A DNA stretch of 64,000 bases from Mesostigma viride. Taxonomy: Eukaryota; Streptophyta; Mesostigmatophyceae; Mesostigmatales; Mesostigmataceae. Location: assembly GCA_009746045.1 (NCBI GenBank), contig RPFO01000104.1, positions 6,458,501-6,522,500 on the forward strand. Reading direction: 5' to 3'. Of this stretch, positions 6,955 through 59,073 are shown one piece after another. Numbering within the stretch: position 1 is the first letter of the stretch; each line of letters opens with the position of its first letter. The notes beneath the pieces were generated by a model, which ran no database searches, was not told the origin of the DNA, and saw nothing but the letters and a program-made list of their open reading frames with translations. The position numbers and the translations under genes are program-made.

Positions 6955-6979
6955 GGCCGGGCCCACTTCGAATGTTCCG
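6955..6979 (+). repeat. Left terminal inverted repeat of the giant transposon
   Basis: These 25 bp are identical to the reverse complement of 32604-32628. Inside it, 6990-7010 carries GTGTGTGACACTTTT, which resembles the GTGTCACACTTTT next to the right end, so the symmetry extends imperfectly to about 50 bp. Confidence 0.93.
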
Positions 6980-7244
6980 CGGTCCAAGCCAAGTGTGTGA
7001 CACTTTTCCTTCAATTTTGAGGCAAAAATCTTGAATTTTGGCTTGCGAACGTGTAAATTTCACGTAAATATTACAATTTGTGGGTATTTATCTCATTGTA
7101 AGTCTCGTGTGACATAAAAACTTTACATTAGCGTGAAATTGCATTGTTTCATTGAAGAATATCATGGATACATTCGTCGCACTTGAGACGGAGTCGACTG
7201 AATTTACTAAAGACTCGTCCAACATAAAATAAACTCTTCGAACG
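6980..7244. other. Left subterminal spacer of the giant transposon
   Basis: This AT-rich stretch lies between the left inverted repeat and the stop codon of the long minus-strand gene. It would hold that gene's 3' end. I see no ORF. Confidence 0.4.
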
Positions 7245-7774
7245 TCACTTCTTATTCTTGCTCCTTGCTTCTGCTTCCAATTTCTGCTGTTCTGTTTTGG
7301 ACTTCTTCCTCTTTGGATCGATGGACATCGCAGGTGCCCACTTTGCCACATCATTCCAACTCTTTCCGTCCATCAGAGTCACCACCTTCTTCACATAGTC
7401 CAAAGGCATCCAGAACTTGCCCCTATGCAACTTTCCGCCCTCTGTCTCTTCTGGAAAAAACTTCATGCAAACGTCCCTCCATTTCCGATCGTATCCACCT
7501 ACCTGCCCGTACAACTTCACCTCCTGTAACTTGGTATACTTTTGCTTTTCCCTACTCGCATTGGCCCTTCTCATGGTGTTCTCGGCCCACCCATCAATCC
7601 AGAAGCACTCCGGTGCTCCGTGTTTCTGTTCCCCGTCCATAAGTCTCATCCACAGCGTAGGCTTCTCATAAGGCTCTTGGCTCTGCGCATTCGCTTCCAC
7701 CCCTTCAGACTGAGCAGCAAGTTTAGCTGCAGGACCGAAGCCCACCGCAGCGTTCGCCCGCACCACATCATTAC
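7245..7774 (-). CDS. Last exon, Lys-rich C-terminus
   Basis: Acceptor GCGCAG joins in phase to the upstream exon (KG/NDVVRANAAVGFG). The visible fold-like part is YEKPTLWMRLMDGEQKHGAP, GYDRKWRDVCMKFFPEE and PLDYVKKVVTLMDGKSW. It ends with a basic stretch (DPKRKKSKTEQQKLEAEARS, then KNKK), which could serve as a nuclear localisation signal. The stop TGA is at 7245-7247. The intron 7775-7890 is one of the few in this gene without a palindrome. Confidence 0.65.
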
Positions 7775-10700
7775 CTGCGCGTAACCAATCGGCACATCAA
7801 CGACGGACTAAAGTCAACGTAGATAGATTGCAAACGAATTTAAAAAAAAATTCAGGATACATGCCACGACCAAAACAGCGATTTCCTCACCCTTTGTTAT
7901 TCCTTTCTGAGCTCGAGTAGCAGCTGTCTTGGGTCGAGACGAGCCGGAAGACTTGGAGGGCGCGGCAGGCTTCTTCCTCCCCTCAGACGTCGCTCTGCGA
8001 GTTGACCCTCCTGCCCCTCCACCCCTTGCCCTTCCATCACCCCTTCGCCTCCCTCCATCTTTCTCCTCCTCGTCGTCATCCCCCTCCTCCTCCCCCTCCC
8101 CCTCCTCCTCCTCCTCCCCCTCCTCCTCCTCCTCCTCCTCCTCCTCCTCCTCCTCCTCCTCCTCCTCCTCCTCCTCCTCCTCCTCCTCCTCCTCCTCCTC
8201 CTCCTCCTCCTCCTCCTCCTCCTCCTCCTCTCTCCTCCTCCTCCTCCTCCTCCTCCTCCTCCTCCTCCTCCTCCTCCTCCTCCTCCTCCTCCTCCTCCTC
8301 CCCTCCTCCCCCTCCTCCCCCTCGTCCCCCTCCTCCCCCTCCTCGACCCCCTCCTCCCCCTCCGCCCCCTCCTCCTCCTCCTCCTCGGAGGAGGATGATG
8401 ATGACTCGACTGGCTGCCGTCGAAGCTCTTTCTTGGGATACTTTGAAACGCGCGTAGGCGCGGAAGGAGCGACAGGCCGGGCAGAAGCGCCAGGCTCAGC
8501 TTCATCTTCGTCGTCCGAGATTTGAACAACTGCCTTTCGAAGCTTTTTGGAAGGGTGTGACTCCGGCTGCGGCTGGACAGACGGCCGCTGCCCACCCTTC
8601 CCTTTGTCCCGCGTCTTCTGCGGTGACGACTTCTCTCCCCCCTTAGACGTCTTCTGCGGTGACGACTTCTCTCCCCCTTAGACGTCTTCTGCGGTGACGA
8701 CTTCTCTCCCCCCTTAGACGTCTTCTGCGGTGACGACTTCTCTCCCCCCTTAGACGTCTTCTGCGGTGACGACTTCTCTCCCCCCGTAGACGTCGCTCTG
8801 CGAGTCGACCCTCCTTCCTTTCCACCCTGTCCCTCGCCTCCGTCGTCACCATCCGAATCTCCTTCCGCGTCATCCTCAGCCTTCCTCTTCTTCGCCAATG
8901 ACGTCCACGAGACGTCAGGCATCTTCCCCATCCGAACCAGTAAGTCTTCGAAGCCATCCAATGACTTCTTTCCGCCAAAAACGACCACGATGGGACGCAA
9001 CTCCTCGAAAAACTGCGTCGCTAGCTCGATAAGCTTCCTGTGGTAACCGGAATTGCGTTCGACAGTTGTCTTTTTTGGAGGAACCATAAAGAGGTCATGG
9101 TCAGCCCACCAGAAGTCCTTGAAGGACGTCCACTTGCATGCGGCCGAACTCACCATCCAAATTCAGGATTCTACAGCACGGTAATGGCGTCAGGCCATCG
9201 TCTTGCCTCGCGAAAGTGGATGGGAAGCCCTCACCGTCCCCCACCGCCACCTCCGCCGCCACCCTCCTCACAAATGCCTTCTTCCTGTCAGGGCCGCCTT
9301 TAGGGAGACTATGAGAAGAATACCAGACGGTCATCTGATCCCAGGAAATGCTGCGCCAGTTATACTCAATCGGCTCAGCACTTTTCTCTTCCACCTTCTC
9401 CCCCCCTTTCCCTGCAACTTTCTCCTTCGCCTCAACCACCGCCTCCTTCTTCCCTTCCCCTCCTTCCATCTTTTTTTGATAGTGGAGATACAAGTCCTTG
9501 TCCAGAAGGCCGTGCGAACCCTTCATGAAGACGTTCGGAGCGGTTTTGTCGAGGAGATCCACTAGATCGATTGCCCATCAGATCCTTTCTCGGAATCCTT
9601 AGGTGATTGGCAAGACCTTCGGACTTTAAGAGGTAGGCGACATTGCGCGTGATGATGACGGCCTTCTCCCAAAATGCAGGAATCGATCGACGACGTCCTT
9701 GTTCCTTGGCATCCGGTTAAGTAGTCGTAAGCCGAACACCTCTTCAAATAAGCGAGAAGCCTTGTACTCCAGATCAGCCCCCCCCTTACATTCGCCATCC
9801 AAGTCGGGCTTTTCCTGAAACTTAATAAGGATGAATTGGCGAACGCACTCAAGTACGTCCTTGGCCAACTCCACCAACTTTGACAGCTTTTCGGGCCCAA
9901 CCTCCCCACTCATGATGCATTCACACACAGCGTCCATCATCGGAAACGACGCCAGGTTCCTTACAGACGTCCAGGACACCTTTTGCCCCTTCTTGGTGCC
10001 CTCGGCGTTAGCGAACCGGCATCTGAGAGTCATAGTCTCCTCAGAAGCTGGTGTGACTGAATTCTCATCATCCGGCCTGGCCTTTGTGAGGCGCAGGAAG
10101 GTGTTCGCCAGAACTCGATTGTAATTTGAAATTTGGGAAGGTTGGGCCTTGTTTTTTTTCCGCTCGCCTTCTTCCTCCCTCAACTCCCCCTTATCCTCCT
10201 TACTCCCCTCCAAACTCCCTTCCCTCCCGACTGATTGTTTGGTGGCCGGCAGGATGTACGCCAGCAGGTTCGTGTAATGGCCATCGGGAATAAAATGCCC
10301 TTTGCCCTGCTTCACGACGCCGTGCAAGTACAGCCTGTTGTAATTCCAAACATCCAGAAGCGCCTGCCCAAGCGTCCGATCCGCTACCGCCTGATCTTCG
10401 GCATTGGCGCCCTTGGAGATTTCGAATAGGCGATCCAGCTTCTTCTTCCCAACCTCCTGTCACGAACAGAGGAACGAAAAATTGACACACAAGAACAATT
10501 CAAGGGTCGACTTGCAGCGTGACGTTATGAACGCACGGGAGCGCGAAAAATGGTCTTCAGCGCCGAAATCGGTAAGTTAGGGTCACTCTGCGAAACCACC
10601 CCAGAAATATGTCGGGATGAGAGTTTGACTGCCAATGTCGTTTCTGTGTGCGACTTCCCGCATTTATAATGCATGATAAAGGAAGACTTTTGACATGGTC

Positions 10701-13700
10701 ACTCCACAGTGCGACCCTTACTCGACATAACACGACGAAGTGGTGGAACTGCAGCGTCACCATTGCCATAGATAGAACTACCACTTACAGATATTTCCGG
10801 GAACTTTTTACACTCGTCCCAATTTGGAAGAAGGTCGGCCCCCCGAAGCAGAATGACGTTCGTTCCCCCGTACCCGACATGGAATTGTTCCATGAGGGAT
10901 GAGAAAAGTTTAGCCGCCGCGGCACTGTCCTTCGCGTTCTCAGACGCTGCCCCCCCTTCACACATTAGTTTCTTAACATGTGTCACACCGGGCGTCCATT
11001 CCCCCTCCACTTGCTTGAAAGACTTTAAACCCTTGAAATAGTGGTTTCCGTCGACCACCGCATATCGAAGAACGAGATATTCGCCATCAGGATGTTCCTC
11101 GTGAAATCTTGGGTCGAATGCCTTTAAGGAGGCCTGGCTTATTAGGCTGAAGACCTCCCTTGGTTGAAAATCAAAGGGCAGAACGTCGTCTTGTTCCCCG
11201 ACTCGTGCATAGGTCCGGAACTCAACACCTCTCTTGAGGAAAGAAGCGGTGGACTTGGTTCCAAGATACTTCTCAATCTCCTTGTCGGACAAGGGGCGAA
11301 AGTAACGCGAGCCCACGAACTCCGCGTCAGTCCTAGCGCCATGGCATTTTTTCAGCCAATCCCGGTAAGGGCCAGAGGACGTGATGTGTTTGGCGAAGAG
11401 GCTTGGCTTGGTTTCCGCAAGCGCTTGAAAGGCGAACTGCCACACAGGGATGCACACCTTAAAATGCAAACTGTTTGTCTTTGCATTCAGCAAGATGCGC
11501 CCGTTCTCCCTGAACACCTCATCGCTTAGCAACCGCTGCCTCATGTTGTCAGGCAAAATCAGCCCGTTGACGGTGTGAATGCGCATGCTATTGCAACCGG
11601 TATCGATGAAGTCACTCGGTCGAATCCAACGGGATTCCCGCAGAGCATTCGCGTCCCGAATGGCTTTGTCCCTGATCTCCTTCTCGGAGTCCACGGTCGT
11701 TGCCATCTTCCACTCTTTGATGATCGGCTCCTTGTCCACCTTTCCACTACTCGTCAGGATCCCCTCCTTGAAGAGCTTTGAAAGTGCTTTCAGAAGCTCA
11801 AGAAAAGGGGAGAAGGTAGGCCACTTCAATATATCCGACGCCGGCGCCTTGCCCCTGGCTTCGACGTAGTTAAGCATCTCCTTGACGAGTGCAAAAACGG
11901 CATCATTGCCGGCCAACCTTCCGTCACCGTCTCCTTCCCCCTCGGCACCCTGAACGAAGGCATTGACGAACATGAGACAAGAAAGCAATAAATAGTTTAA
12001 CGTATGCATATAGTCCGCGAGCATAGGAAAATCTCAGAGTGGGGTGCAAAGAACACAGAAGGTAAAAAGGGTCACTCCACGGAGCTACCCCTCTGAATCT
12101 AAATCACCAAAAACGCACCGCTTCCTTTTCTCCCGCCTTCTTCCCCTTCTTTCCTTTTCCGCCTTTCTCCCCCTCGCCACCCTGAAGGAAGGCATTGACG
12201 AAGATGAGACAGGAAAACAATAAATAGTTTAACGTTTGCAAATAGTCGGCGTGCAGACAAAAAATACCGAATAGGGTGCAAAGAACGGAGAAGGTAAAAA
12301 GGTTCACTCCACAGAGCTACCCCTCTAAATCTAAAATTCCGCAAAAAACGCACCTCTTCCTTTTCTCCCGCCTTCTTCCCCTTCTTTCCCTTTCCGCCCT
12401 TCTCCCCCCGGCCGCGTCATCCTCCCCCTTATCCTTCCCCTTCTCCTTTTTATCCGCATCCCTCTTCTTTTTGGACGCTTTTGCCTGACCCTCAAGCAGC
12501 TTCGCCCGTTCACGATCCCTTCTCTTGAGATCCCACTTCATGAACTTGATGACCTTGTCCATCTTCGCCTCCGTGTACTCCTTTGGTTTCCACTTGAACT
12601 TTTCGGTGCCCTTGGACTTGACTTGGTTGACGAAATCAAAGGCCAGGTCACCGTTGAAGGTGTCAGATTGCATTGCAAAATCGGCCGCCGCCTCAACGCG
12701 TAGTTGGGTTAGATACTTGCGAAACTCCCCGGCACCCATCGTAACATCCTTAGGGGGCTTGGCTAGGATGAGGTCGCCAATATCACAGATAGTCTGCACC
12801 TTATTCTTTCTCAAAATAAGCTTCATGAGATCCTGATGAGCTGCTTCGAGTGTCGTCGTCGCCTTTTTTTTAGCCTGCTGGAAGGTATACCAACAACACA
12901 CAACATACACATGAAGCAAAATGTATTAAGAAGAGTAATCTGAACTCTGGCATCCTAGCTCTGCAGCGCGACCTTCAGCGTTAAGGGGAGGGGATATGCC
13001 TAAAGAGCACTTTTCTGGAAACCATACCTATGCATGTGCTAAAAATCCAATTATGATTGGGAACCATAAATATGATTTAAAAAAAATTTTCCAACCACTT
13101 GGGGGGGGTACTAGCCCCCACCAGATGCCGGTTACGCGCTAAAAATAGAAAAAGACGCTACTTTTGGCATATTTTCCCTAGGACAATGGGCAAACATATT
13201 TGGACCAAATCATATATTTCCATATAGTTCCCCCACTTTTGAGAAAGTCTGCCTAATTTTGAGCACAAAATAATGATGTTTAGACACATTGATGGATTTT
13301 CTCGCAAAAAGGGTACTTTTTTTCACCAAAAAAAAAAAAAATCATAAACACATAGAATCATGCCATATCTTATATTTTCGAATACTAGAGAGGGGGGGAC
13401 ATGCAGCCCCAAATTTTCAGGTCATTCTGACAAGCGCAGCCCTATTTGATGGATATTCCCAGATTGCCACCTGTGATGACGCTGACGGAGGTTTTAGCTA
13501 GTATTTAACCACACTAACACCCCTTTATACATCTAAGCCACGTGAAAACTGGCCAAACCACACACTACCATCCTCTGCACATATGGCACCTCCTATGTTC
13601 CAGGTTTGACGACGCGTTCCGACAAGAACTGCCCAAGTTACAACCATTCCAAGACGGCCACCCATGTAGACACTACAAGGAAATTATAGTAACCATTCAG

Positions 13701-16700
13701 CCACACTAGCACCTCCTTCTTCATCAAAGACATCTGCAAACTGACCAAAGCACACATAATTAACTCTTGCACGCTGACGGCAACGCATGCTCAACGTGGG
13801 GGTCATTGTGACAAGAACTACTTAAGTTGATGGGTTTCCTATATGACCATGCACCTGACAAGGCGCTAAGGACCACTCAGTAAGTTAGTAACCCCACAGT
13901 GCCACTTCTTATGCCATCCAACATGCACCAAAACCATGCTGAGTATCTTTACAATGTACAAAGGGGTGGCCACGCACCTCATATGTACGTCTTCATCATC
14001 CCTCCAGCATGGCCAGCCTTGTAAATATGTTCATAGCCTTGACGATGGTAGCCCTATTAACATGCCTAAGCAGCATTTCCTATGTTACTCCCAGGTTAGA
14101 GTGTAAGGTTGATGCCAACCAAGCTAATCAACTCAACAACACCTCCTAAACTGTCCTCCCCGGCATGGATGACAAACTGGGACTATGGAGGGCGAGGAAC
14201 CAAGTAAGAACATGGTATATATAGCTTGCATGCAGTCATGCATGTCAACCATGGTTGGCTCAGCACATTGTAGTCTTGTCACATCATCATAACAAAGGAA
14301 AGCTCAAACAACCATTGGTGCCAGCTATCTACATGCAGTCACACAAATGCAATATCTCCAACATCATCATCACTAAAACACTTCCATCCCTGCACGATAA
14401 AATGCAAAGAAACCACTGGCGGCCCTTCAGCGCATGAGCGCTGTGATGCCACTGTGGCCTGCGAAGAGAGGGTGCGTCACTCTCAAACAACAAGAAGCGT
14501 CCATACGCACAACATCCTTGCCGGAACGCGTTTTATGAAATGCCTTATACCTTCCCAAAGAGCTATAGGCTGCGACTGAAGCGGCCCTGATCACGGCATC
14601 AACGAAAACAATCTAAAGCTGCCAGGTATTCGACAACACAACGGCAAGCGACGGCGAGCTAGCTGGCGGAAACTGCCCAAAAAGAACGCAAAAAACCTCG
14701 AACGATGAGCTCATAGAAGAAAGCACTGATAGCAGATAACATTCGCGACAAATCTGTACCTCGCCCTCGTAAATCCCTCACCCAGGCGCGCAACAACAGC
14801 CGTTCTTCCATGGACAGGTCAGACACGCACAGCGCAGGTCTGAACAATTACTTACCGATAATGGCCGACAATCTGGCAAAAAGCACCAGATCGGTTTAGA
14901 ATTCGATGCAACCGATATTAACGCCTGCTTCACGGTCAGAACAACCCTTGAAATCGCGATTTTACAGCCGCTATCATGAATTCTATTTCATTCCGCGCGA
15001 CCAAAAAATTCAGATTACCCCCCATGCCGATGGCATAAAAAAACAACAGCGATATTGTCAACCAGCTGATTTCCGCCACAAACTAACATCATAACCGCAT
15101 CGTCTTTTAGATTCGAGTAAAAATTTTGCATTTCGCCTGCCCTGGTGTGGTAGTTTCGCCTGGACGCAGTCGCCATGGCCACTTCCGCAAGGGGTGCGCG
15201 CACCGTGCACGTGAAATTTATGACCTTCGGTTCCGGCGAGAATTTTTTGGCGCCAAATAATTCGGGCATGTCCCGTCCCCTTAAAAACTTAAAAAACATT
15301 GTACAAACCTTTGCCTTCCCCTTCCCCTTCGGAGTTGGCTCGGGCTCATTTTCTTCCTCCTCCTCCTCCTCCTCGTGCTCCTCCTCCTCTTCCTCCTCGT
15401 CCACCTCCTGCTCCTTCTCCTCCTCTTCCTCCTCGTCCACCTCCTGCATGAAAATAATAATTCAGACGATGACATAAAAAAAACGAGCATTAATTTTGTT
15501 TTAAGGTGGCTCTGCGAAACGACCCCAACCCTAAGCTTTAACAGTAAAATGAAACAAATTTCCTACCTCTACGTTCTCCGTCCCCATCCCTTCGACCTCT
15601 TCGAAAGGTTGATCGTCATCCTGCAAGACGAAACGTGCGTTCAGATAAATATACAAAGTCAGTCAAAACAGGAACTATTTCTTGAATATTCTATCTTCAC
15701 AAATCGACCCCGAACCTTTAGCGGCATTTGCTTACCTCCGGGTTCCACGCTGAAGGACTTTGTCCCTCAAAACGTGGAATGTCACCCTCCTGGCGGGAAG
15801 GAGAGAAAGAAATGTGTTGATCGTTAGTAACAATTTTCAACAAAAGAAATACACAACACAAATCTAAACGGACTCAATAAAAATGTACACAAATGTCAAT
15901 AATTACCTCAATGTCAAATCTCCACTCCCGCAACACTTGTCCGATCGGCCACATCTCAGATGGAGTTGTGTGGCTCAGTTCATTTTCGAAAAACGTCCGA
16001 AGAGCTATCAAGTGAGATAGCATGTCCTGACTCCATGATTTCTCGTTTATGTTCGCCGTCACTAACGACAGGCAGTCGTCGATCCCCTTGTACTCAAGCC
16101 ATGCGACAACCTCCTTTCGTGGGGGCTCATACTGTCCGGCCATGTCGAACTCCCCACTCTGACGAAAACGCAGGATCTCATCCTCGCACAACTGAAGAAA
16201 TAATTCAACAGCTCGACTCGGAAGAATAGGGTCTGGGTTCACCCTAAACTGCGCCATCCACACTGAATACGACGAAAGGAAGTGCGATCTAACCCCATCC
16301 AAATCTTCAATCACTTCCGAACCAGCCCTGTACAACTCGGGAGATACCGAGTGGTCCATGGCGACCAGAAAGTCGCCGAAGACATCCCAGTCGAACTGTG
16401 CAGCCTTGAACCCTTTCTGAACCCTTTCTTCAAGAGCAGATTGACATCCATTTCCGTCAGCGGGGAGGTGTCCCAATCCTCACCTGTCTTCCCCTGCTCT
16501 AGGACCTGGTACATTTCCCACCTGCAGACAGATATGATGATGTCAAAATACTCGTGTGACAATGGGTGCTGTCTCGTGTCCTTGCAGACTGTACTGTTTG
16601 GTCGCACAAGACAGCTTGATCCAGACGAGCAGGCTTCGAGGAACATAAGCTGTAACATCCGCTGCGTCGGGTATATTCGACCCGCACTCGGTAACAACAA

Positions 16701-19148: not shown

Positions 19149-19313
19149 CTGCGGCAAATAAGGAAAAACAAATTGACGAATGTCGGATGAAGAAAGTGTA
19201 AATTCGCATCAGCGTGAGGGGTGGCGCTGCAGCGCTACCCTAAGAAGAAACAAGGATGAAATCCCATTCAGGTTAGGGGATTAAAAAAAATCAAAGATGT
19301 AACATATGTCAGG

Positions 19314-19745
19314 GAAGGGGTTATTCTGTAGCGAGACCCTTCCGCAAAATAAGACATAAGAACCATGTTAAGGAAGGGTGACTCTGCAGCGCGACCCTAC
19401 CAACAAAATATAGTATAATAATATTTCATGGAAGGGTGACTCGGCATCGCGACCCTACAAACAAAATGTGATTGAATAACGTATCTTGGAAAGGTGACTC
19501 TGCAGCGCGACCCTACCAACAAAATATGATATAAAAATATTTCATGGAACGGTGACTCTGCAGCGCGACCCTACAAACAAATTGTGATTGAATAACGTAT
19601 CTTGGAAAGATGACTCTGCAGCGCGACCCTACAAACAATGAATGGAAATTTGAATTGTGAGGGGGTCACTCTGCAGCGCGGCCCCACAAACAAAGACTGC
19701 GACATTGCGCAAGGGTAGGGGTCACTCTGCAGAGCAACCCTACCC
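19314..19745. repeat. Tandem array of eight palindrome units, period about 57 bp
   Basis: The palindrome recurs at 19318, 19376, 19434, 19492, 19550, 19608, 19663 and 19719. Spacers alternate between CAACAAAATAT...TTTCATGG and CAAACAAAATGTG...ATCTTGG types. The array lies 5' of the first recognised exon of the long minus-strand gene, next to the minisatellite. Confidence 0.85.
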
Positions 19746-19782
19746 AAAAACAATACTGACCACTCCCCAAAAAAATCACGCA

Positions 19783-22700
19783 TGGATGATGGTGGTGGGT
19801 GGCTGGCATGCATGGATGGTGGTGGTGGGGTGCTGGCATGCATGGATGATGGTGGTGGGGTGCTGGCATGCATGGATGGTGGTGGTGGGGTGCTGGCATG
19901 CATGGATGGTGGTGGTGGGGTGCTGGCATGCATGGATGGTGGTGGTGGGGTGCTGGCACGCATGGATGGTGGTGGTGGGGTGCTGGCACGCATGGATGAT
20001 GGTGGTGGGGTGCTGGCATGCATGCATGGATGGTGGTGGTGGGGTGCTGGCATGCATGGATGGTGGTGGTGGGTGGCTGGCACGCATGGATGGTGGTGGT
20101 GGGGTGCTGGCATGCATGGATGGTGGTGGTGGGTGGCTGGCATGCATGGATGGTGGTGGTGGGTGGCTGGCATGCATGGATGGTGGTGGTGGGGTGCTGG
20201 CACGCATGGATGGTGGTGGTGGGTGGCTGGCATGCATGGATGGTGGTGGTGGGTGGCTGGCATGCATGGATGGTGGTGGTGGGTGGCTGGCATGCATGGA
20301 TGGTGGTGGTGGGTGGCTTGCACGCATGGATGGTGGTGGTGGGTGGCTGGCATGCATGGATGGTGGTGGTGGGTGGCTGGCATGCATGGATGGTGGTGGT
20401 GGGTGGCTGGCACGCATGGATGGTGGTGGTGGGTGGCTGGCATGCATGGATGGTTGTGGTGGGTGGCTGGCATGCATGGATGGTGGTGGTGGGTGGCTGG
20501 CACGCATGGATGGTGGTGGTGGGGTGCTGGCATGCATGGATGGTGGTGGTGGGTGGCTGGCATGCATGGATGGTGGTGGTGGGTGGCTGGCACGCATGGA
20601 TGGTGGTGGTGGGGTGCTGGCATGCATGGATGGTGGTGGTGGGTGGCTGGCATGCATGGATGGTGGTGGTGCATGGGTGGCTGGCACGCATGGATGGTGG
20701 TGGTGGGTGGCTGGCATGCATGGATGGTGGTGGTGGGGTGCTGGCATGCATGGATGGTGGTGGTGGGTGGCTGGCATGCATGGATGGTGGTGGTGGGTGG
20801 CTGGCATGTATGGATGGTGGTGGTGGGTGGCTGGCATGCATGGATGGTGGTGGTGGGTGGCTGGCACGCATGGATGGTGGTGGTGGGTGGCTGGCATGCA
20901 TGGATGGTGGTGGTGGGTGGCTGGCATGCATGGATGGTGGTGGTGGGGTGCTGGCACGCATGGATGATGGTGGTGGGGTGCTGGCATGCATGGATGGTGG
21001 TGGTGGGTGGCTGGCATGCATGGATGGTGGTGGTGGGTGGCTGGCACGCATGGATGGTGGTGGTGGGTGGCTGGCATGCATGGATGGTGGTGGTGGGGTG
21101 CTGGCATGCATGGATGGTGGTGGTGGGGTGCTGGCACGCATGGATGGTGGTGGTGGGGTGCTGGCATGCATGGATGGTGGTGGTGGGTGGCTGGCATGCA
21201 TGGATGGTGGTGGTGGGGTGCTGGCACGCATGGATGATGGTGGTGGGGTGCTGGCATGCATGGATGGTGGTGGTGGGTGGCTGGCACGCATGGATGGTGG
21301 TGGTGGGTGGCTGGCATGCATGGATGGTGGTGGTGGGGTGCTGGCATGCATGGATGGTGGTGGTGGGTGGCTGGCATGCATGGATGGTGGTGGTGGGGTG
21401 CTGGCACGCATGGATGATGGTGGTGGGGTGCTGGCATGCATGGATGGTGGTGGTGGGGTGCTGGCATGCATGGATGGTGGTGGTGGGTGGCTGGCATGCA
21501 TGGATGGTGGTGGTGGGGTGCTGGCATGCATGGATGGTGGTGGTGGGTGGCTGGCATGCATGGATGGTGGTGGTGGGTGGCTGGCATGCATGGATGGTGG
21601 TGGTGGGGTGCTGGCACGCATGGATGGTGGTGGTGGGTGGCTGGCATGCATGGATGGTGGTGGTGGGTGGCTGGCACGCATGGATGGTGGTGGTGGGTGG
21701 CTGGCATGCATGGATGGTGGTGGTGGGTGGCTTGCACGCATGGATGGTGGTGGTGGGTGGCTGGCATGCATGGATGGTGGTGGTGGGTGGCTGGCATGCA
21801 TGGATGGTGGTGGTGGGTGGCTGGCACGCATGGATGGTGGTGGTGGGTGGCTGGCATGCATGGATGGTGGTGGTGGGTGGCTGGCATGCATGGATGGTGG
21901 TGGTGGGTGGCTGGCACGCATGGATGGTGGTGGTGGGGTGCTGGCATGCATGGATGGTGGTGGTGGGTGGCTGGCATGCATGGATGGTGGTGGTGGGTGG
22001 CTGGCACGCATGGATGGTGGTGGTGGGGTGCTGGCATGCATGGATGGTGGTGGTGGGTGGCTGGCATGCATGGATGGTGGTGGTGGGTGGCTGGCACGCA
22101 TGGATGGTGGTGGTGGGGTGCTGGCATGCATGGATGGTGGTGGTGGGTGGCTGGCATGCATGGATGGTGGTGGTGGGTGGCTGGCATGCATGGATGGTGG
22201 TGGTGGGGTGCTGGCATGCATGGATGGTGGTGGTGGGTGGCTGGCACGCATGGATGGTGGTGGTGGGTGGCTGGCATGCATGGATGGTGGTGGTGGGTGG
22301 CTGGCATGCATGGATGGTGGTGGTGGGTGGCTGGCACGCATGGATGGTGGTGGTGGGGTGCTGGCATGCATGGATGGTGGTGGTGGGGTGCTGGCATGCA
22401 TGGATGGTGGTGGTGGGTGGCTGGCACGCATGGATGGTGGTGGTGGGGTGCTGGCATGCATGGATGGTGGTGGTGGGGTGCTGGCATGCATGGATGGTGG
22501 TGGTGGGGTGCTGGCACGCATGGATGGTGGTGGTGGGTGGCTGGCATGCATGGATGGTGGTGGTGGGTGGCTGGCATGCATGGATGGTGGTGGTGGGGTG
22601 CTGGCACGCATGGATGATGGTGGTGGGGTGCTGGAATGCATGGATGGTGGTGGTGGGTGGCTGGCACGCATGGATGGTGGTGGTGGGTGGCTGGCATGCA

Positions 22701-23775
22701 TGGATGGTGGTGGTGGGGTGCTGGCATGCATGGATGGTGGTGGTGGGTGGCTGGCATGCATGGATGGTGGTGGTGGGTGGCTGGCACGCATGGATGGTGG
22801 TGGTGGGGTGCTGGCATGCATGGATGGTGGTGGTGGGTGGCTGGCATGCATGGATGGTGGTGGTGGGTGGCTGGCACGCATGGATGGTGGTGGTGGGGTG
22901 CTGGCATGCATGGATGGTGGTGGTGGGTGGCTGGCATGCATGGATGGTGGTGGTGGGGTGCTGGCACGCATGGATGGTGGTGGTGGGTGGCTGGCATGCA
23001 TGGATGGTGGTGGTGGGGTGCTGGCATGCATGGATGGTGGTGGTGGGTGGCTGGCACGCATGGATGGTGGTGGTGGGTGGCTGGCATGCATGGATGGTGG
23101 TGGTGGGTGGCTCGGGCATGCATGGATGGTGGTGGTGGGTGGCTGGCACGCATGGATGGTGGTGGTGGGTGGCTGGCATGCATGGATGGTGGTGGTGGGT
23201 GGCTGGCATGCATGGATGGTGGTGGTGGGTGGCTGGCACGCATGGATGGTGGTGGTGGGGTGCTGGCATGCATGGATGGTGGTGGTGGGTGGCTGGCATG
23301 CATTGCATGATCGATGGTGGTGGTGGGTGGCTGGCACGCATGGATGGTGGTGGTGGGTGGCTGGCATGCATGGATGGTGGTGGTGGGGTGCTGGCATGCA
23401 TGGATGGTGGTGGTGGGGTGCTGGCACGCATGGATGGTGGTGGTGGGGTGCTGGCATGCATGGATGGTGGTGGTGGGTGGCTGGCATGCATGGATGGTGG
23501 TGGTGGGGTGCTGGCACGCATGGATGATGGTGGTGGGGTGCTGGCATGCATGGATGGTGGTGGTGGGGTGCTGGCATGCATGGATGGTGGTGGTGGGGTG
23601 CTGGCATGCATGGATGGTGGTGGTGGGTGGCTGGCACGCATGGATGGTGGTGGTGGGGTGCTGGCATGCATGGATGGTGGTGGTGGGTGGCTGGCAGGCA
23701 TGGATGGTGGTGGTGGGTGGCTGGCATGCATGGATGGTGGTGGTGGGTGGCTGGCACGCATGGATGGTGGTGGTT
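19783..23775. repeat. 30-bp minisatellite, about 133 units, 4 kb
   Basis: The unit is ATGCATGGATGG, then TGGTGGTGGG, then TGGCTGGC. Two unit forms (GGGTGGCTGGC and GGGGTGCTGGC) and a CATG/CACG variant alternate, often with CACG every third unit, so there is higher-order structure. Rare variants (GGCTTGCACG at 20311 and 21725; GATGATGG; a GCATGGG insertion at 20671; GGAATG at 22631) mark duplicated blocks. The period is divisible by three, so all frames stay open for over 1,000 codons, but nothing suggests coding. The G-rich strand could form two-tier G-quadruplexes. Confidence 0.95.
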
Positions 23776-23786
23776 GTGAGCGCATC

Positions 23787-24360
23787 AAGAATCGACTCTT
23801 TACGTGTCGGAAAAAGCGATAAAAGTCTCGATCCCAACATCTCGGTAGCCAGCTGAACAGCCAGCTTCCAATAAACAACCGCTCAGACATCTTGCTGGCC
23901 AGCTACGTCGATCCCAATCCACATCTCGCTAGCCATCGCAAGAAACGACTCTTTATACGTGGCAGAAAAAGCGATAAAAGTCTCCATCCCAACATCTCGG
24001 TAGCCAGCTCAACAGCCAGCTTCGATGAAACAACCGCTCAGACATCTTGCTGGCCAGCTACGTCGATCCCAATCCACATCTCGCTAGCCATCGCAAGAAA
24101 CGACTCTTTACGTGGCAGAAAAAGCGATAAAAGTCTCCATCCCAACATCTCGGTAGCCAGCTCAACAGCCAGCTTCGATGAAACAACCGCTCAGACATCT
24201 TGCTGGCCAGCTACGTCGATCCCAATCCACATCTCGCTAGCCATCGCAAGAAACGACTCTTTACGTGGCAGAAAAAGCGATAAAAGTCTCCATCCCAACA
24301 TCTCGGTAGCCAGCTCAACAGCCAGCTTCGATGAAACAACCGCTCAGACATCTTGCTGGC
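23787..24360. repeat. 153-bp tandem repeat, about 3.7 copies
   Basis: Copies start at 23787, 23940, 24095 and 24248 with AAGAA(A/T)CGACTCTTTA and run through TCTCGGTAGCCAGCT to CTCGCTAGCCATCGC. The last copy stops at CTTGCTGGC near 24360. The array follows the minisatellite directly. Open frames through it are repeat artefacts. Confidence 0.9.
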
Positions 24361-24876
24361 TGAGGACCACACTAAGGGCATCATAGACGTTCGTTGCACA
24401 TTTACCTGCACGCATAAATCAGGAAGGGGGAAAAACGGCATTGAACAGGACCACGATTAGAATTGGGCTAGCTATAAACTAACCTGACCATTTGAAGGAA
24501 TAGCAACATACATCACGCTCGACATCAAAAAAGACTGCGCTGTTGATGCACCTTTTTCATTATGGCGGCGAGTTGAGGCGGCAAATTCCTCACCATCTTC
24601 AGGCAGCGATGATTATTACAGAAAACAGCTATGGCGGCAGCAGTGGTGGTGCGGTTTTCGAAACCCAACAGCTGTTGTGACCGATCGTCTGTGGAGCGAC
24701 CCCTGTCAACGGCCCAGCGTAACCGGCGTTCAGGACGGAAAACGTGGCATGCTCGCCATTCGGCCAACGAGGCGAAACGCGGCGCTAGATTATTCTTATT
24801 GACAAACCGCGCGCATGCGGATTGGACGACTCACAATGTGACGTAATCCAAGCGTCGGTCTTCACGGTCCCGCAGG

Positions 24877-24885
24877 TATAAAAAG
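24877..24885 (+). promoter_or_regulatory. Possible TATA box of the transposase gene
   Basis: TATAAAAAG lies 36 bp upstream of an ATG at 24921 whose short frame (MFGFGRHHAAVDNYVRG) ends at a GTGAGC donor (24983). The phase does not match the next certain exon, so the first exon is unproven. Confidence 0.3.
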
Positions 24886-25109
24886 GAACAACACGCAGCC
24901 AATGTGACGCGGCAATCGGGATGTTTGGATTCGGGCGTCACCATGCTGCTGTGGATAACTACGTCCGCGGTTCGATTCTAGCGTGAGCCCGGTGCTTTTT
25001 TGCACGTCGTCTGAGAGATCATCTGTCATATTACCACCAGTCGTCACTCTGCAAAGCGACGTGCCTACTGCCACGTGGTATGGCAAAACTTTCGAATGCA
25101 GAACTTTTG

Positions 25110-25660
25110 GGGTATACAAATAAATATATTAATGAATCGGGTATAGTAAATGTATGGGCATATATACTAACATGCTAGCCAATATATTTAACTTTCTGCT
25201 GTCCATATGCTTATTATTATGATTATTGTTATGAATATGATATATGTTCTTTCTAATATTTGTAAAATATATTTTCCTATTTACTGCTAACTTACTGTAC
25301 TAGTTTTTTATATATATGACTAGTACTAGATAGATTAATGCCATGAATACAAATTTAAAATATAGATAAAATTCTATGACAATATTACATATATTTATGG
25401 ACATCACTCTTTTTTTCATACAATAAGTAGAAAATATTTAGTATTAGAGATAGCTACTAGTCTGTCCAGTTCATATTTCTTCTATCTAAACAATAATGAT
25501 TGAAATAGAAATAGTACTAAATACTAATCAAAACTATATAAATACCAATAAATACTTTCCATATTTCTGCTACATAATTAAACAATAATGATTAACAAAA
25601 TTATGTTCAATATTCAATTTCATTTAGTAGAATCTTAAATAATTCCATGTTCGTGTTTTC
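25110..25660. other. AT-rich island
   Basis: About 550 bp is made largely of A and T with ATATAT runs (for example TTTTTTATATATATG near 25306), in contrast to the GC-balanced surroundings. There is no ORF or repeat pairing. It may be an intron, a nested element remnant or an unwinding or replication region. Confidence 0.55.
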
Positions 25661-25714
25661 CTGTCTTGGTGTGATCATCCAGGTACCTCGGCAACGACAC
25701 GACACGCCTGAAAA

Positions 25715-28700
25715 ATGAGCCGGGAAGGTGTGTTTCCAATGATGCAAATCTTGGTCGCGCTGCAGCGCGACCTCTTCTCAGTTCCATACGAAAAGGCCTT
25801 AAAACTTGTGTGTAACTTCGCAAGGGTCGCGCTGCAGAGCTACCCAAAATTTCATGAAGTTTGACTTTCTCTTTATTTGCTTCGCAAATGAGATTCTTTT
25901 GTATCTGCGAAGAAGGTGGGGTCATTTCGCGGAGTGACCCTGCTAATATGTTAATTGTCCGTGAATTTCTTTTTGTTTCTGCAGCACGGGAACGGGTGTT
26001 TCTTTCGCCAACCTCCTCCTCCTTGCGTGGCGGCTTTGCTAATCGACTCAATGCCCACAACTTGAGCATCGGGACACCGACGCCCCTTGCAGCGGATCTG
26101 AAAAACAGCTCGAAACGAAATTTCGGGAATGAGAACCGCAGCACCTCGCCCGCCGTCAGGAAGCCAGCGAAAAGGCCTGGCCAGTACGCCGAGAAGAAGT
26201 CTGTTGTGGGGACTCATCTTGCTGATGAGGCGTACAACGTAGTTCATCACATGAGGAATGAATCTACCAAGCGGGCCTCTTTTGAGGAGATTGTTGATGG
26301 CTTCAATAAGAGGGCTGACGAGCTCAAGGCGGAGCATTTTGACATTCCGGTGGCCAAGCTTTTGATGAGCAGCGGCTTGCACAACTGTCGAGGTCTTGGG
26401 TGGCTCGGCTGATCGCCCTTTTTGACGACCTGTCGAAATCCGACCATGACAGAGACGTCAAGATCATTTTGGTGTCAACTCTTTTTTGTGGGGACGACAT
26501 CGAGAAGGAGTTTTCGGCGGCAGAGTTGGAGAGAATGACGGGTGTCCCCGCGAAGACCATTCTCAAAGTTCGGGCGATCAGGAAGCAACAGAAGATGGAG
26601 TTCCTGACGCGTGCGCTGGCGCGAAAGAAGAGGAAGTTGCCCCAATTTGTAATCGAGTCGATCGCGCAGGCTTGGACTGATGAGGAGAACTCGCGCGCTT
26701 CGCCCCAAGAGAGGGATACCATAAAGACGCACGAACGAGTTGGCAATCGTGCGATTTTGGTTGGTGTCCAAGGGGCCTACTTCTACCTCACCTCGAAGGA
26801 GGACATATATCTCAAGTTTTTAGCGGAGCACACGTACTGGGACAAGAAAAGTCCGCAGTATGAGAAGGATGTCGGCATCCATGTCGGATATACGACTTTC
26901 TGCAAGTACGCCCCCAAAACCGTCAAGGGGAAGTGGAAGGAGAGAAACGTGTGCGCCTGTGAGACGCATACGGTCATGCAGTCGAAGGTAGCGGCATGGA
27001 CTAGGTACTGCAAGGCGAAGCACGGCAAGAACTGCAAGTGCGGCGACGAGTGTGAGGGATGTTCAAGGGCGAGATTGCCTGACGGCACGTGCGGGATGTT
27101 CGAAAGCCTGCACACGACCGAATGGGTGAAGCACTTCCATTGCCGTGTGGCGGAGGCGGATGGGGGTAGTGAGCTGGGGGTGGGGCAAACTCGGCGAGAA
27201 ACGAAGAGGAGGGAGGGGACAATAATGTGACGGAAGATGAATGGCAGGGGCAAGACCTTGACGATCTTGAAATAAATGAGAGGATCGTGGAGGATGAGGA
27301 AGGGGTGCCAAGGGTAGGGGACCCATCCATGGAGGAGGGGTCTGTCTTTCGCATTCTGAAGAGGGCATGTATGGAGAACTCGTGTCCCGAGTCCCGGTGT
27401 GGCATCAAAGACTGGGTGTTGTGTGACCGGGACAAGAATTCAACAGAACTACTAAATTGGTTCAGATACGTGAAGAAGGAGGTAGTGGTTTCCCGACCGG
27501 CAGGGGAGGTAAGCGTGTTTTGGATTTTGTGACGCAATTATTTCGCAGCGTCATTCTGCAGCGCGATGTTAATTAAAGGCTTTTCTGATACTTTATGAAT
27601 ATGTTACTTGCAAATTTACTTCATCCCTTGGTTAAAACAGGACGCGACCGATCGGCGGGTCCCGGAGAAGGTCAAGCGGCCCGTACAGGAAACGATGAGG
27701 TCAACGCCCGCGCAGCTGAGGCTGGCGATTATCGAGAGTTGGGAGGACTTTACCAACCACTGCTTTACGTCATGGTGGCAGTCGGCAACGATCAAGGACC
27801 GGGAGAGGAACATGACTGAGGGGGATGTGCTCGTGCATGGAGATTGGGCCGAGAATTACGAGAACAACAACTACGTCCAACTGCAGTCGCAGTACTTTCA
27901 CAAGACGAGCTTTGTCCTCATGCCCATGATCGTGCGATATTTGCACAATGGTGCGATGGCAAAGCGAACGTTCTTTTTTCTCGGGGAAGCCAAGATGAAG
28001 CGGGGAGAGCGGGCGCTCGTCTACGCGCTGAGGACAATCATGGAAACCCTGCGCGGACTTGGTGTGGGGGTGAAGAGGATGTTCATGTGCTCTGACAACT
28101 GCTCATCCCAGTTCAAGTCCAAGTACGTGGTTAACGCCGTCTTCCGCCTCCTCATGCAGGATCCCGACTTGGAATCCTTCGAGTACCACTACTTGGGTGA
28201 GCAGCACGGGAAGGGGGAGGTGGATGGTCAGGGAGCGAAGTTCAAGTGCATTGTGAGGAACATGCAATGCATTCCTGAGAACCAGGGCATCGTTACAGGG
28301 CGCCAGATCGTCAAGTACATGCGGGACAGCTGGGAAGGAGGCAAAACCACGAGCAGGGAGTCGGCCCGCGCTCGGGCAGAGGGCGTCCACCGTCATTTCT
28401 TTCATTTTCCCGTGAGGTGCGAAACTCAAATTTTCTTTAAAACTTGATTAACCCTTAAACCGTGTCCAACTGCCCTCTATAAATAGCGGGCAGTTTGCAC
28501 TTTCCATGATAATGTCCACAAACCAACCTAATAATTATTTATGGCCCATACTAGGACCAAAGCACACACATATGTGGACCTCCTTGGGGGTCATGTCATT
28601 GGTCATATTGCAATGTCCTATGAGTGCTAAATATAGCACCCCCTGGCAGGGGGTGCGCAGGGTGCGAGACAAGAGACACATATAATGCAATATTGGATGT

Positions 28701-31144
28701 CAAATCTTATTTGTTGGTCCTGGATTCAACAAGGCAGTGAGAAAGGAAGCTAGAAAGGGCTCCTGAACACTGACATCATGGGGTGGAGCAGGGACCCAGC
28801 TGCAAGCTCTAAAAATAAATGCCCGCTACAAATAGCGGACAGTTTGGTTGGTGACGCCTGCTAGCATTACAAAGCTAAATTATCATCCCGTAGCAACAAA
28901 AAACATCATGGATGATCAAACATGCTAATTAAATCCTGTCCAGGCTGCAGAACATCCATCATAGCATATAAAGATAGGTAACCACGCCTATGCACAGTCA
29001 CATTTGTACGTATCGTAGCATGGTAAGGGCACACCCTTGAAACCACACAAGCCAAACACGATGCTCACTTTTTTCTTGTGCTGATGCTGTAATAAACAAG
29101 TGCAAGTAAGCCTAGCTCAATGACAGTGCTAGCTAGTGCTCCCTGTATGCTGGGATTTATTAAAGTAGCTGCTAACTGGCTATGGGGTGTCCTCTACTAA
29201 CAAAACCAAAAAGCTAACCAAAACCTGGCCAAGATACCATCTTTCCAAAGAATGTAGGCAAGAAAACCCATCACAATACCATGCACAACATATTTAAGCA
29301 TTGCATCGATCGTTACTCTAGTATATAGGATGAAGACGCAGCTAACCATGAACAAAACGGATGATAAACTGGGCGAAATGGTTGTACGCAGCCACCACGA
29401 CAAACCATTACATAAAAGTAGTAAGGAGGGAACTTTAACACCACGAAACCTTAATAATAAATCCGGGATTACTTACCGAGCGATAAAACCACTTTACCTC
29501 CTTCACGGCAGCGGCAGGGACTGCAAACTGCGCCAGGTCCAACTACAGCAAAAAAGACTGGCTGACAGGTAGCAAGCTCATGACAGAAACGATGCCCCGA
29601 GGCTATTCTGGCCCACAGCGCTGATGAACTATGCGATATACATCATAATAAAGTTAATCGTTGCGAAATATTCGATGATAAAACGGCAAATACCAAGTGC
29701 TAGCTTCATCGGCATCCCCGTAGTAGTAAACGCGTGTTAACGCAATAAAAACCAGCCCCAGATGATTGCGCGCCTCGTTAGAGGTTGCGCAACTAGGTCT
29801 ATAGCATCTTTATGACGTATAAAGTGTGCCTACAAAATTTAGAACGAGTCCGTGCATGAATGCTCCTGCGCCAGTCAGTTTTCTGCACCGCCATGGCCGC
29901 AAATCTGCACGGACGTCAATATTTTACATTCACGTTTTCGTCCCATTGAAAAGGGTACCCCTTGTACTTGGGTCAATAATTAGTCCCTGTGTACTTGTCA
30001 GAATATAGTGATGTTTAGGTACGGGACGCAGTACACATCTACAGTAGCTGAAGACGCCTGGCTAAAAATATCACGGAAATACCTACTGGCATTCGCGTTA
30101 TTCTCACTACCAACTGTCCGCTATTTGTAGCGGTCAGTTGGTACTGTCCGCTGCAAATATCAGTCAGCACGGTTTAAGGGTTAAGGTATCTCTGCAGAGT
30201 GACCTTTTGCCCATTTGCATTTTATTATATGATAATGCTAAAAGAACTGGTATGAATTAGCGTCTTATATCAGTTGTGAAAAATGCATGCAAAGCACTTT
30301 CAAAGGGGTATGATCTCTGCAGAGTGACCCTTGATGTGTACTTGATCTATTGACACATACGAACTTTCCGTTTCTGACATTCTCCCTCATTGCAGGACCT
30401 CGACTCCGGCGCCCGTATGATACCGACGCGTGTCGAGGCCATCAAGCAAGCGCACTGGTGGCGCCCGGCCTGGACAAGTCTGACCCGGGGCTCCTGATGA
30501 TGAGGCGTTTTTCGTGCTACTGCCCAGCCTGCCTAGCTAACAGGTGGGAGGAGTGCCGGACCGAGTGGACACATATCGAGGAATTTAACGATGAGGGCCA
30601 AACGATGAAAACTTTCCGCCTGATGCCGCCAACGCAGCCCATCCCTCCGGTTCGCCAGCTGACGCGGGCGGAACTGCTGAAGGATCAAAGGGATGCCATT
30701 GGCAGGCAGATGCGCATGTATGATTACATCGCAGTTCCGTCAGACAGAGAGGACGTGAACCACAATTCCGCCCACCCTTTCTGGGTGATGCAGGTGGTGA
30801 GGGAGGCCTCAGTGCTGGAGAAGGAGGAGGTTAGGTGGGTTGAGGGACAAAACGGACGGCAGAAGGAGATTTTCTTGCCCGGCCACGCCGTTCTGGCGGT
30901 TCGGCTGTGGAAGCGAGATATGCATGACCCCCTGCATTTTACTCTGGATTTGGCTGATTGGCCGGAGTCCCGCCCAGCCGACCTGGTCGATTGCTATCTG
31001 TGCATCTCCGCTGCTCTTCCGCTCCAGTGCATGGTCCTTGGCAACCAAAGGCAAGCCTACGTTAATATGAGCAAGGAGCTTGACGCGTGGCTAACCGATC
31101 TTGTACGCAACCAGCAAGCCCCGGAGGGGCTGCCACCGGCTTAA
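25715..31144 (+). CDS. DDE-type transposase of the giant transposon
   Basis: The exons are possibly 25715-25727, then 25985-27508, 27641-28410 and 30395-31144, all GT/AG, with about 1,000 residues in total. The second exon has KVRAIRKQQKMEFLTRALAR, a region TYWDKKSPQYEKDVGIHVGY, then Cys clusters (VCACETH, NCKCGDECEGC). The third holds an RNase H-fold core: HGDWAENYE (Asp codon 27842), SDNCSSQFKSKY (Asp 28094) and GKGEVDGQGAKFK (Glu 28217 or Asp 28223), with spacings of 84 and 41 residues. The last has CYCPACLANRWEEC. The same motif order (FAENY, SDxxSSQFKN, HGKGxVDG, CxC) is familiar to me from unclassified transposase-like proteins of animals and algae, and I give no superfamily name. Frame breaks lie at about 26340-26358, 27176-27185 (G runs) and about 30484-30490 (CCCGGGG). 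Confidence 0.75.
28452..30180. mobile_element. Nested 1,729-bp TTAA-flanked element in a transposase intron
   Basis: TTAA duplications lie at 28448-28451 and 30181-30184. The terminal inverted repeats are 13 bp, CCCTTAAACCGTG (28452-28464 and 30168-30180). Subterminal hairpins with arms AACTG(A/C)CCGCTA and TAGCGG(A/G)CAGTT occur near both ends and at about 28817-28843. There is no coding capacity. TTAA duplication with CCC-starting ends fits the piggyBac type, though Kolobok also uses TTAA. Removing it leaves an intron of about 255 bp that still has two palindromes. Confidence 0.85.
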
Positions 31145-31734
31145 AGTTTCGGGGACGCTCCGCAGCGCCACCCCTACGGATCTGGGCTTTATTCGCCTAC
31201 GGTTGGGACAGTGTTTATTCGTGTTTATATATTTTGGGAGAACTGTTTTTTCATATATTAGAATAGATGACAAGTGGCTGGGAACATTGTTAGCCTTGGC
31301 AGTGACAAATTTTAGTATATTTCCGCGTCGAAATGGCGAGTATTTTATTTAACTTGTACAATAATTTTTTCGAATGACAAATTTATAATTTGGTTTGACC
31401 TAAAAATCATGTCGTCACTCAAATATTTAGTTGCTCGGTAGGTATTTCCGTCCATTGTTTTCTGCAAATTGGTTCGTACTAATTTCGAATGTCACAACAA
31501 TGTTACTGTACTAAGGCCTCTTTTGTAGATGTCTTAAAACACAAATTCGCTCCGGAAGTGCCAAAGTACCTTGCTTGTAACCGGACTAGTTACGAATTGT
31601 GATTGGAAGGTTGTCCCTTACAACCCCAAGGAATAGAGGGGACGCTCCGCAGCGCCACCCATACGACAGTCCGGACCGGGCTTTGCTGAAATCATTTTCT
31701 CACACGCAACTTAGCCATCAAACTCACTTTAACG

Positions 31735-32190
31735 ATGGAGCGTGCCGATGTTTTTGGTTCGCAGCATACATATGTGCATGTCGATAAAAAGGAGCATGCG
31801 GCCAACATGTTTGTTGAAATCGACTCCCCCCCCCACGACTTCCCACGCTCCCTGCGTGGACCGTTTGGAGGTTGGGGTTCAGGTGTCATTGCGTTCGGAA
31901 ACGGGATGATCGACCTGATGCCCCCAGATTCAGATTTGGCGCCTGCCCGGGTGGTGCAATGCCTCCAGAAGGAGGGCACGGAAATTTCGCCCTATGTCTC
32001 GACTGTGCGCCTCCGGGCTGAGGCCCAGCATGAGTTCTTGAATGCGGCGGAAATAGGTGGGGCCGTATGGGCCCCCAAACAATTTTCCAACGAGCCTCCA
32101 AATTTCGGGGGGGACTTGTACAAGGGAGCGTACAAGTTTCGTGACATTGAGATCGATGGATGGGGGTCATTTCGGCTCCAGGAAAAGTGA
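31735..32190 (+). CDS. Small intact gene near the right end, unknown function
   Basis: This is a 151-aa single-exon frame with no frame break. It reads MERADVFGSQHTYVHVDKKE, then FVEIDSPPHDFPRSLRGPFG, VIAFGNGMIDLMPPDSDLAP and FLNAAEIGGAVWAPKQF, ending DIEIDGWGSFRLQEK. It has the mixed composition of a compact beta-rich protein, with no membrane segment or metal motif, and I do not recognise it. A palindrome at 31638-31660 lies just upstream, and another at 31151-31173 just after the transposase stop. Its place next to the right terminus, in the transposase orientation, suggests an accessory transposition protein (inference). Confidence 0.6.
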   Translation: MERADVFGSQHTYVHVDKKEHAANMFVEIDSPPHDFPRSLRGPFGGWGSGVIAFGNGMIDLMPPDSDLAPARVVQCLQKEGTEISPYVSTVRLRAEAQHEFLNAAEIGGAVWAPKQFSNEPPNFGGDLYKGAYKFRDIEIDGWGSFRLQEK

Positions 32191-32477
32191 ATGCCGGTCC
32201 CATTTGGCAAATATAATCGATGGTTAATTCCATGCAACATTTTGCGTTGGTCAAATGTGTAAATTTTCATTATTAATCGATTCAATAAAATTATGGGGGT
32301 GGGTATACCCACCATTTGATGGTTGAAAGTACTACTAGCTTCGTCGATTAACTCTTCTCAACATGGTCCTCTAGTCGACTAGGAATGTACCAATCCATCA
32401 GGGTATCGAGAAACTTGTTATGCCGAAACACTCCGGTCGAAAATTTCGTGCCACCTGCAGGCAATCAAAAAGCGCAC

Positions 32478-32599
32478 GCGGACCGACGGGAAAGAGTAGT
32501 TAGTTACGAAATTAAAAAAACGACAAAAAGTGTCACACGCGGCCCGGCGGGAAAAAGTAGTTTGTTACGAAGTTAAAAAAACGACGAAAAGTGTCACAC
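32478..32599. repeat. Two 61-bp subterminal direct repeats at the right end
   Basis: The copies are 32478-32538 and 32539-32599, each running from GCGG(A/C)CCG(A/G)CGGGAAA to AGTGTCACAC and differing at a handful of positions. They abut the right inverted repeat. Such subterminal repeats are commonly transposase-binding sites, and that role is inferred here. Confidence 0.8.
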
Positions 32600-32603
32600 T
32601 TTT

Positions 32604-32628
32604 CGGAACATTCGAAGTGGGCCCGGCC
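32604..32628 (-). repeat. Right terminal inverted repeat of the giant transposon
   Basis: These 25 bp are the perfect inverted partner of 6955-6979. The TTCC target duplication and the interrupted LINE tail follow directly. Confidence 0.93.
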
Positions 32629-32632
32629 TTCC

Positions 32633-58515: not shown

Positions 58516-59073
<558 letters not shown>

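Follow-up and report, generated by a model that had tools for sequence, protein, structure and literature searches.

The stretch of DNA analysed here, called the window, comprises 64,000 nucleotides from the freshwater streptophyte green alga Mesostigma viride (assembly GCA_009746045.1, contig RPFO01000104.1, positions 6,458,501 to 6,522,500 of the forward strand), a member of the earliest branch of the lineage toward land plants. Between positions 6955 and 32628 it holds a DNA transposon with terminal inverted repeats (TIRs), whose borders are exact to the base. The two 25-bp ends are identical at 25/25 positions in inverted orientation and are flanked by the duplication TTCC, and the 20-bp core of the ends (up to 3 mismatches) occurs 2 times in the window versus 0.03 expected. 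When the flanks of the element are joined, they match a paralogue at 39829-39849 in which TTCC is present once; the insertion target is a dispersed repeat, with more partial copies near 35.6, 40.0 and 60.8 kb of the window. A reading made earlier from the letters alone (the sequence-only reading) had placed the borders at these positions on the strength of the same ends, duplication and empty site, and we find them correct to the base. All the parts it listed are present as well: a transposase gene of the DDE type and a small gene on the plus strand, a very long gene on the minus strand, satellites between the two divergent genes and a family of palindromes. Its length of 25.7 kb holds for the window copy (25,674 bp, a figure valid for this copy alone), which includes two nested insertions. 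Both are missing from the sampled copies that span their sites, and subtracting them gives a basic element of 21,641 bp.

The element belongs to a family. We searched the assembly (439,911,974 bases, 2243 contigs) with the end sequence, allowing up to 3 mismatches, and obtained 374 forward and 384 reverse matches, 758 together, versus 0 and 0 with the reversed pattern as control; short derivatives and ends without a partner are among these matches, so 758 must not be taken for the number of elements. Junctions were inspected in the window element and in 20 facing end pairs lying 19.6-34.2 kb apart among the first 100 listed places (n=21; three further listed pairs of like spacing were left out). 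The same TIRs are present in all 20 further pairs, and 19 of the 21 elements have an exact 4-bp target duplication; these 19 are unrelated sequences sharing no target motif. Further copies with 4-bp duplications, which the sequence-only reading had named as the check on its proposal, thus exist in number. For 10 of the 20 pairs, the ten sampled copies below, sequence was taken inward for 10 kb from either end, and both halves align with the window element. Over the transposase block 26000-28411 the window and the ten copies are 0.00-0.25% apart, several pairs being identical; over block 8900-12000 the window and eight copies (two were dropped for coverage) are 0.00-1.16% apart. Except for its introns the transposase is open in 8 of the ten sampled copies (the exceptions, with broken frames, are L035 and L047), and matches to its first exon (P0001 residues about 4-514) are without a stop in 45/45 places scored, a proportion that is biased because these are the best 45 of 1621 candidates. 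Near-identical copies and open frames support a recent spread of the family, which has apparently been active recently. The window element itself is one defective copy: its transposase has three frame breaks and both large genes are frame-broken. The breaks in homopolymers may reflect either errors of the long reads or decay.

The transposase matches two proteins of the Mesostigma gene set Mesvir1, P0001 and P0002. A profile search among 7994 candidates found these two, another Mesvir1 protein (P0003, 39% identical) and, from a stick insect, an uncharacterised protein of 542 amino acids (P0004, LOC134529494; E 7e-12). Common to all four are D-x-AENY, SDNC-xx-QFKS and HGKG-x-VD, and in a single comparison P0003 and P0004 align at 27% over 217 amino acids (E 7e-20), which suggests a distant kinship of the algal transposase with an insect protein. 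A structural model of the catalytic exon, built from three sequences, has the RNase H order of strands and helices, one Asp standing at the end of strand 1 and another at the end of strand 4, and RNases HI head the PDB list returned by Foldseek (E 1.6e-3, probability 0.98, template modelling score by query 0.26). Beyond strand 5 the Asp of VDG is the sole acid conserved in 4/4 proteins; the triad is accordingly read as DDD, its second and third acids separated by 42 residues. An RNase H-like fold with a DDD triad is therefore the probable architecture of the enzyme, in keeping with the earlier proposal of an unusually large TIR transposon whose transposase is of the DDE type and whose host is a green alga. 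Matches to viral structures were set aside, as E 4e-4 was reached only with a root-mean-square deviation of 16-19.

P0002 leads to a second family. It is encoded at many loci (57 scored of 1519 candidates), and the family-2 transposase is 56% identical to that of family 1. The right end of family 2, GGGTGGTCCCACGCGGAATGGGG, was set by comparing the DNA behind 2 of 3 fetched copies; with the family-1 end it shares GG--GG-CCCAC---GAATG, and the assembly contains 232 and 221 matches to it. In the sole family-2 element examined (C1469:1962881-1987162, read save about 2.4 kb), the left end GGGAGGTCCCACGCGGAATGG is unlike the right end at 1 of 21 bases, and a long gene, a transposase and a small gene lie in the order and orientation of family 1. 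Between the families, the small gene is identical at 87/136 amino acids (64%; nonsynonymous divergence, Ka, 0.26; synonymous divergence, Ks, 0.90) and the C-terminal exon of the transposase at 136/223 (61%; Ka 0.28, Ks 1.06). Three parts of the long gene are identical at 207/352, 177/295 and 95/167 amino acids, with Ka/Ks values of 0.34/2.26, 0.33/2.29 and 0.35/1.20, Ks above about 2 being saturated; a fourth, poorly conserved and poorly aligned, is identical at 67/257 (26%; Ka 0.84, Ks 3.3). As judged from these substitutions, the gene parts compared between the families show purifying selection. Given that the long and small genes recur in the same place and orientation in family 2 and that Ka is well below Ks, they look like core genes, and the description of them as cargo in the sequence-only reading finds no support. 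Inside the family-2 long gene sits a 493-bp derivative of family 1 with both family-1 ends and a CTTC duplication (L075 4322-4814, C1469); ends, therefore, are moved without the genes. A separate observation concerns 25 places where the first exon of P0002 is found at 100% identity with a shorter open frame (536-585 amino acids) and no catalytic exon listed; they seem to represent a truncated derivative that amplified.

Both families also have a 22-bp palindrome (consensus GGGTCACTCTGCAGAGTGACCC). With up to 5 mismatches the window element has 18 copies; none is present in the remaining 38,326 bp of the window, in 20 mononucleotide shuffles of the element's sequence, or in the modelled exons (44% of the element's length). 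With up to 7 mismatches there are 28 inside and 0 outside. Palindromes are held by 7 of the 13 modelled introns at the stricter threshold and by 9 of 13 at the looser one, and they cluster upstream of the long gene (eight, 19318-19740) and upstream of the transposase. The family-2 element has 16 in 21,877 bp, one of them inside the family-1 piece, situated ahead of both genes and also where the fetched right part begins, before the C-terminal exon. Its commonest form is GGGTCTCGCTGCAGCGAGACCC, so both halves have changed together. The palindromes had been called private to the element, and none indeed lies in the 38.3 kb outside; being common to family 2, they are private to the group and not to family 1. 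Most likely they are binding sites of a dimeric protein encoded by the element, serving expression control or the assembly of the ends; as an alternative, they may form hairpins in intronic RNA.

Several observations weigh against what we propose. Two of the sampled elements deviate at the target, one having an inexact duplication (C1, ATTA/ACTA, 3/4 bases) and the other none (C442, CGGT/GTTT, 1/4 bases), and the single family-2 element has unlike flanks (TCCT/TCGG). One palindrome match with up to 7 mismatches falls in an exon. The first exon or exons of the long gene, and so its start, were not found, its model, like all exon/intron models of the element's genes, was made by hand, and its exon of 803-812 amino acids is open in just 5 of the ten sampled copies. 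Pfam matches of the transposase are all below cut-off (DUF7869, E 0.027 for the catalytic exon and 0.12 for P0001; TniQ, E 0.11), the fold model is poor (mean predicted local distance difference test, pLDDT, 53.6) and has no PDB match at E <=0.001, and the sequence analysis saw no transcript, excision footprint or moving copy. With these points counted, we still hold it highly probable that Mesostigma viride has a family of giant TIR transposons, with a basic length of 21.6 kb, a three-gene unit and a probable DDD transposase, and that the interval represents a single defective member of this family.

Could duplication or misassembly have produced the appearance of a mobile family? The assembly comes from long reads, and of its many near-identical copies some lie on short contigs; the genome of strain NIES-296 is described, in the portion of the source available, as rich in repeats and segmental duplications (PMC6947507). 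Against this, the flanks vary from copy to copy, 19 of the 21 junctions have exact 4-bp duplications, a paralogous empty site lies in the window and P0001 belongs to a gene set that has a name of its own; an origin as segmental duplications or an assembly artefact is extremely improbable. An element derived from a virus, such as a Polinton or polinton-like virus, is just as hard to credit. A length of about 20 kb, terminal inverted repeats, several genes and an algal host would suit it; 4-bp duplications would not, no DNA polymerase, ATPase, protease or capsid was matched in Pfam among 15 scanned open reading frames (ORFs) and proteins, a subset of the ORFs, and the catalytic exon has no relative in IMG/VR or the phage collection. 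That a small transposon caught two host genes by chance might explain the large size, the absence of known domains and the very unlike gene lengths. The same gene order in family 2, with the best parts at 57-64% amino acid identity and Ka 0.26-0.35 versus Ks 0.9-2.3, makes this very unlikely, and we strongly disfavour it.

Membership of a named superfamily deserves more weight, and Sola is the likeliest one. Sola elements have 4-bp duplications and preferred target sequences, and DUF7869-like proteins occur in their neighbourhood. The duplications found here have the Sola length; the similarity of the catalytic exon to DUF7869 is weak but better in P0004 (E 2e-4, still under cut-off), and P0004 has DxAENY, SDNCSSQFKSK and HGKGxVD like the transposase of the element. 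On the other side, no curated Pfam cut-off is reached, the 19 exact duplications have no preferred sequence, and no named element is among the four proteins found. Compared by general description only, Sola and the element have in common 4-bp duplications and, probably, a DDE/D transposase, whereas described Sola elements are far shorter and the element is without target preference. An oversized and diverged Sola is possible, though somewhat less likely than not. The sequence-only reading could not place the element in a named superfamily and neither could we; it had also thought it undescribed, and no description appears in the literature searched, Repbase and most subscription papers being outside its reach.

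Returning to the giant TIR transposon, its features are collected below.

Features of the element and its insertion site (positions in the window)
Feature	Position	Strand	Remark
Left target-site duplication, TTCC	6951..6954		
Left 25-bp TIR	6955..6979	+	copies of end sequence genome-wide
Long second gene, ~12 exons	7245..19148	-	hand model; window copy frame-broken
Long-gene exons	7248-7772, 7876-10456, 10792-11952, 12118-12180, 12353-12876, 15328-15461, 15567-15620, 15736-15789, 15867-17010, 17167-17238, 17408-17470, 17631-19148	-	
22-bp palindrome, 18 copies	10580..30205		<=5 mismatches to consensus
Palindrome starts	10580, 10696, 12069, 12301, 17066, 17285, 17517, 19318, 19376, 19434, 19492, 19550, 19608, 19663, 19719, 25824, 25919, 30184		
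Nested insertion 1, 2,296 bp	12985..15280		TTAA at 12981-12984 and 15281-15284; imperfect inverted ends GGGGAGGGGATATGCC / GGGGACGGGACATGCC
58-bp tandem array, upstream of long gene	19372..19638		palindrome in each unit
30-bp satellite, ~133 copies	19780..23774		between two divergent genes
153-bp satellite, 3.7 copies	23786..24360		
Transposase exon, P0001 residues ~5-514	25985..27508	+	frame breaks near 26360 and 27175
Catalytic exon, RNase H-like (probable)	27641..28411	+	
Probable first catalytic Asp, HGDWAENY	27842..27844	+	
Probable second catalytic Asp, SDNC	28094..28096	+	
Probable third catalytic Asp, HGKGEVDG	28223..28225	+	alignment of 4 proteins
Nested insertion 2, 1,729 bp, last transposase intron	28452..30180		TTAA at 28448-28451 and 30181-30184; ends CCCTTAAACCGTG
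C-terminal transposase exon, SCYC-C cysteines	30396..31144	+	frame break near 30465
Small gene, 151 amino acids	31735..32190	+	family-2 homologue
61-bp subterminal direct repeat, 2 copies, right end	32475..32599		contains GTGTGACAC, motif also at left end
Right 25-bp TIR	32604..32628	-	
Right target-site duplication, TTCC	32629..32632		
Paralogous empty site, one TTCC only	39829..39849	-	match to joined flanks

The long gene encodes a protein of about 2,500 amino acids that has no relative among 7987 candidates searched and a predicted structure too poor to use (pLDDT 35.7); a ParB-like reading of its stretch VVDGNHYFKGL, made by eye, has no support in Pfam or PDB. At 11953-12180 and 17167-17470 the gene is made of tandemly repeated exon-intron units with a palindrome in each intron. 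The small gene has no Pfam match. The satellites had been counted as parts of the element, which they are in the window copy; the ten sampled copies hold them only partly and at differing lengths. The ends of nested insertion 2 begin CCC, as those of piggyBac do. Nested insertion 1 lies in an intron of the long gene, and its inverted ends start GGGGA; the initial GG and the TTAA duplication are like those of Kolobok, for which 5'-RR termini and TTAA are given in the available part of PMC9587614. Other copies have insertions of their own elsewhere, several of about 1.7-1.9 kb, perhaps of the same family as nested insertion 2. An 18-bp end pattern matched 11 bacterial contigs in a large contig collection, likely by chance, and no viral contigs; Rfam returned nothing at gathering scores. 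Elsewhere in the window there are a minus-strand ORF of 1072 amino acids (51529-54747), made of 75-bp repeats with matches to RTX calcium-binding nonapeptides (Pfam HemolysinCabind, E 3.5e-10) and unusual for an algal nuclear genome; a minus-strand ORF with a CCHC zinc knuckle (423-1610), probably part of a retroelement; and GTT repeated perfectly 186 times (58516-59073).

How such an element might move can be outlined. The RNase H-like DDD transposase would cut at the TIRs, to which the subterminal GTGTGACAC repeats probably direct it, the 61-bp repeats being candidate binding sites for the enzyme, and the element would be joined to targets staggered by 4 bp, cut-and-paste being the most likely mode. 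Core accessory functions would fall to the long and small genes, and the palindromes before both genes and in the introns would be bound by an element-encoded dimer or act as intronic hairpins; any further role of the long protein is a guess. In eukaryotes most autonomous cut-and-paste transposons are short elements, and those giants that have been described usually descend from viruses or rely on a recombinase. It is tempting, if speculative, to see in these elements the founders of a new superfamily: giant, autonomous DDD transposons that depend on all three genes and move them together. The protein of about 2,500 amino acids, with no recognisable relative, would recognise the family-specific 22-bp palindromes of its own element and make a 20-kb transposon mobile, size being part of the mechanism and not cargo; we regard this as possible, with the odds somewhat against it. 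Regardless, with its DDE-type enzyme, near-identical copies, open transposase frames and conserved core of three genes, the 21.6-kb element lends itself to asking what such an enzyme requires to move 20 kb, and the matching palindromes of the two families make it easy to test whether a DNA-binding protein and its site have evolved together.

Among known systems, Polintons, Teratorn and Starships are alike in size class and in having several genes. Polintons and Teratorn have viral replication genes and Starships a tyrosine recombinase; general scans of the 15 ORFs and proteins found neither in the element. CACTA/EnSpm elements offer a large algal TIR element with several genes, and in plants CACTA has an accessory DNA-binding protein beside the transposase. 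Their ends are CAC..GTG with a 3-bp duplication, unlike the GGCC / GGGT / GGGA ends and 4-bp duplication found here. In the red alga Chondrus crispus, CACTA/EnSpm families of 16-20 kb with 4-5 ORFs are reported in the accessible text of PMC6431247. The signature of CACTA and Transib between the second and third acid, C(2)C and H(3-4)H according to the available portion of PMC12730594, is absent by eye from our four-protein alignment. Likewise absent by eye from that alignment is the C/DxxH that the part of PMC9587614 at hand assigns to the same interval in hAT, P, MuDR, Kolobok and Dada; nor is the duplication TTAA. The KDZ group (Kyakuja, Dileera, Zisupton) is probably similar in combining DDE transposases with accessory genes, which are present in fungi, and differs in its 7-8 bp duplications, as far as the same portion of PMC12730594 goes; P0001-P0003 have no Pfam match to it at E up to 5, a search in which the HMMER filters discard most weak matches. 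CACTA, the C/DxxH group, KDZ and the TTAA elements thus fail on the features examined. Although no long or small gene is known alongside it, the stick-insect protein P0004 has the CxCxxH, DxAENY, SDNCSSQFKSK and HGKGxVD blocks in common with the transposase of this element.

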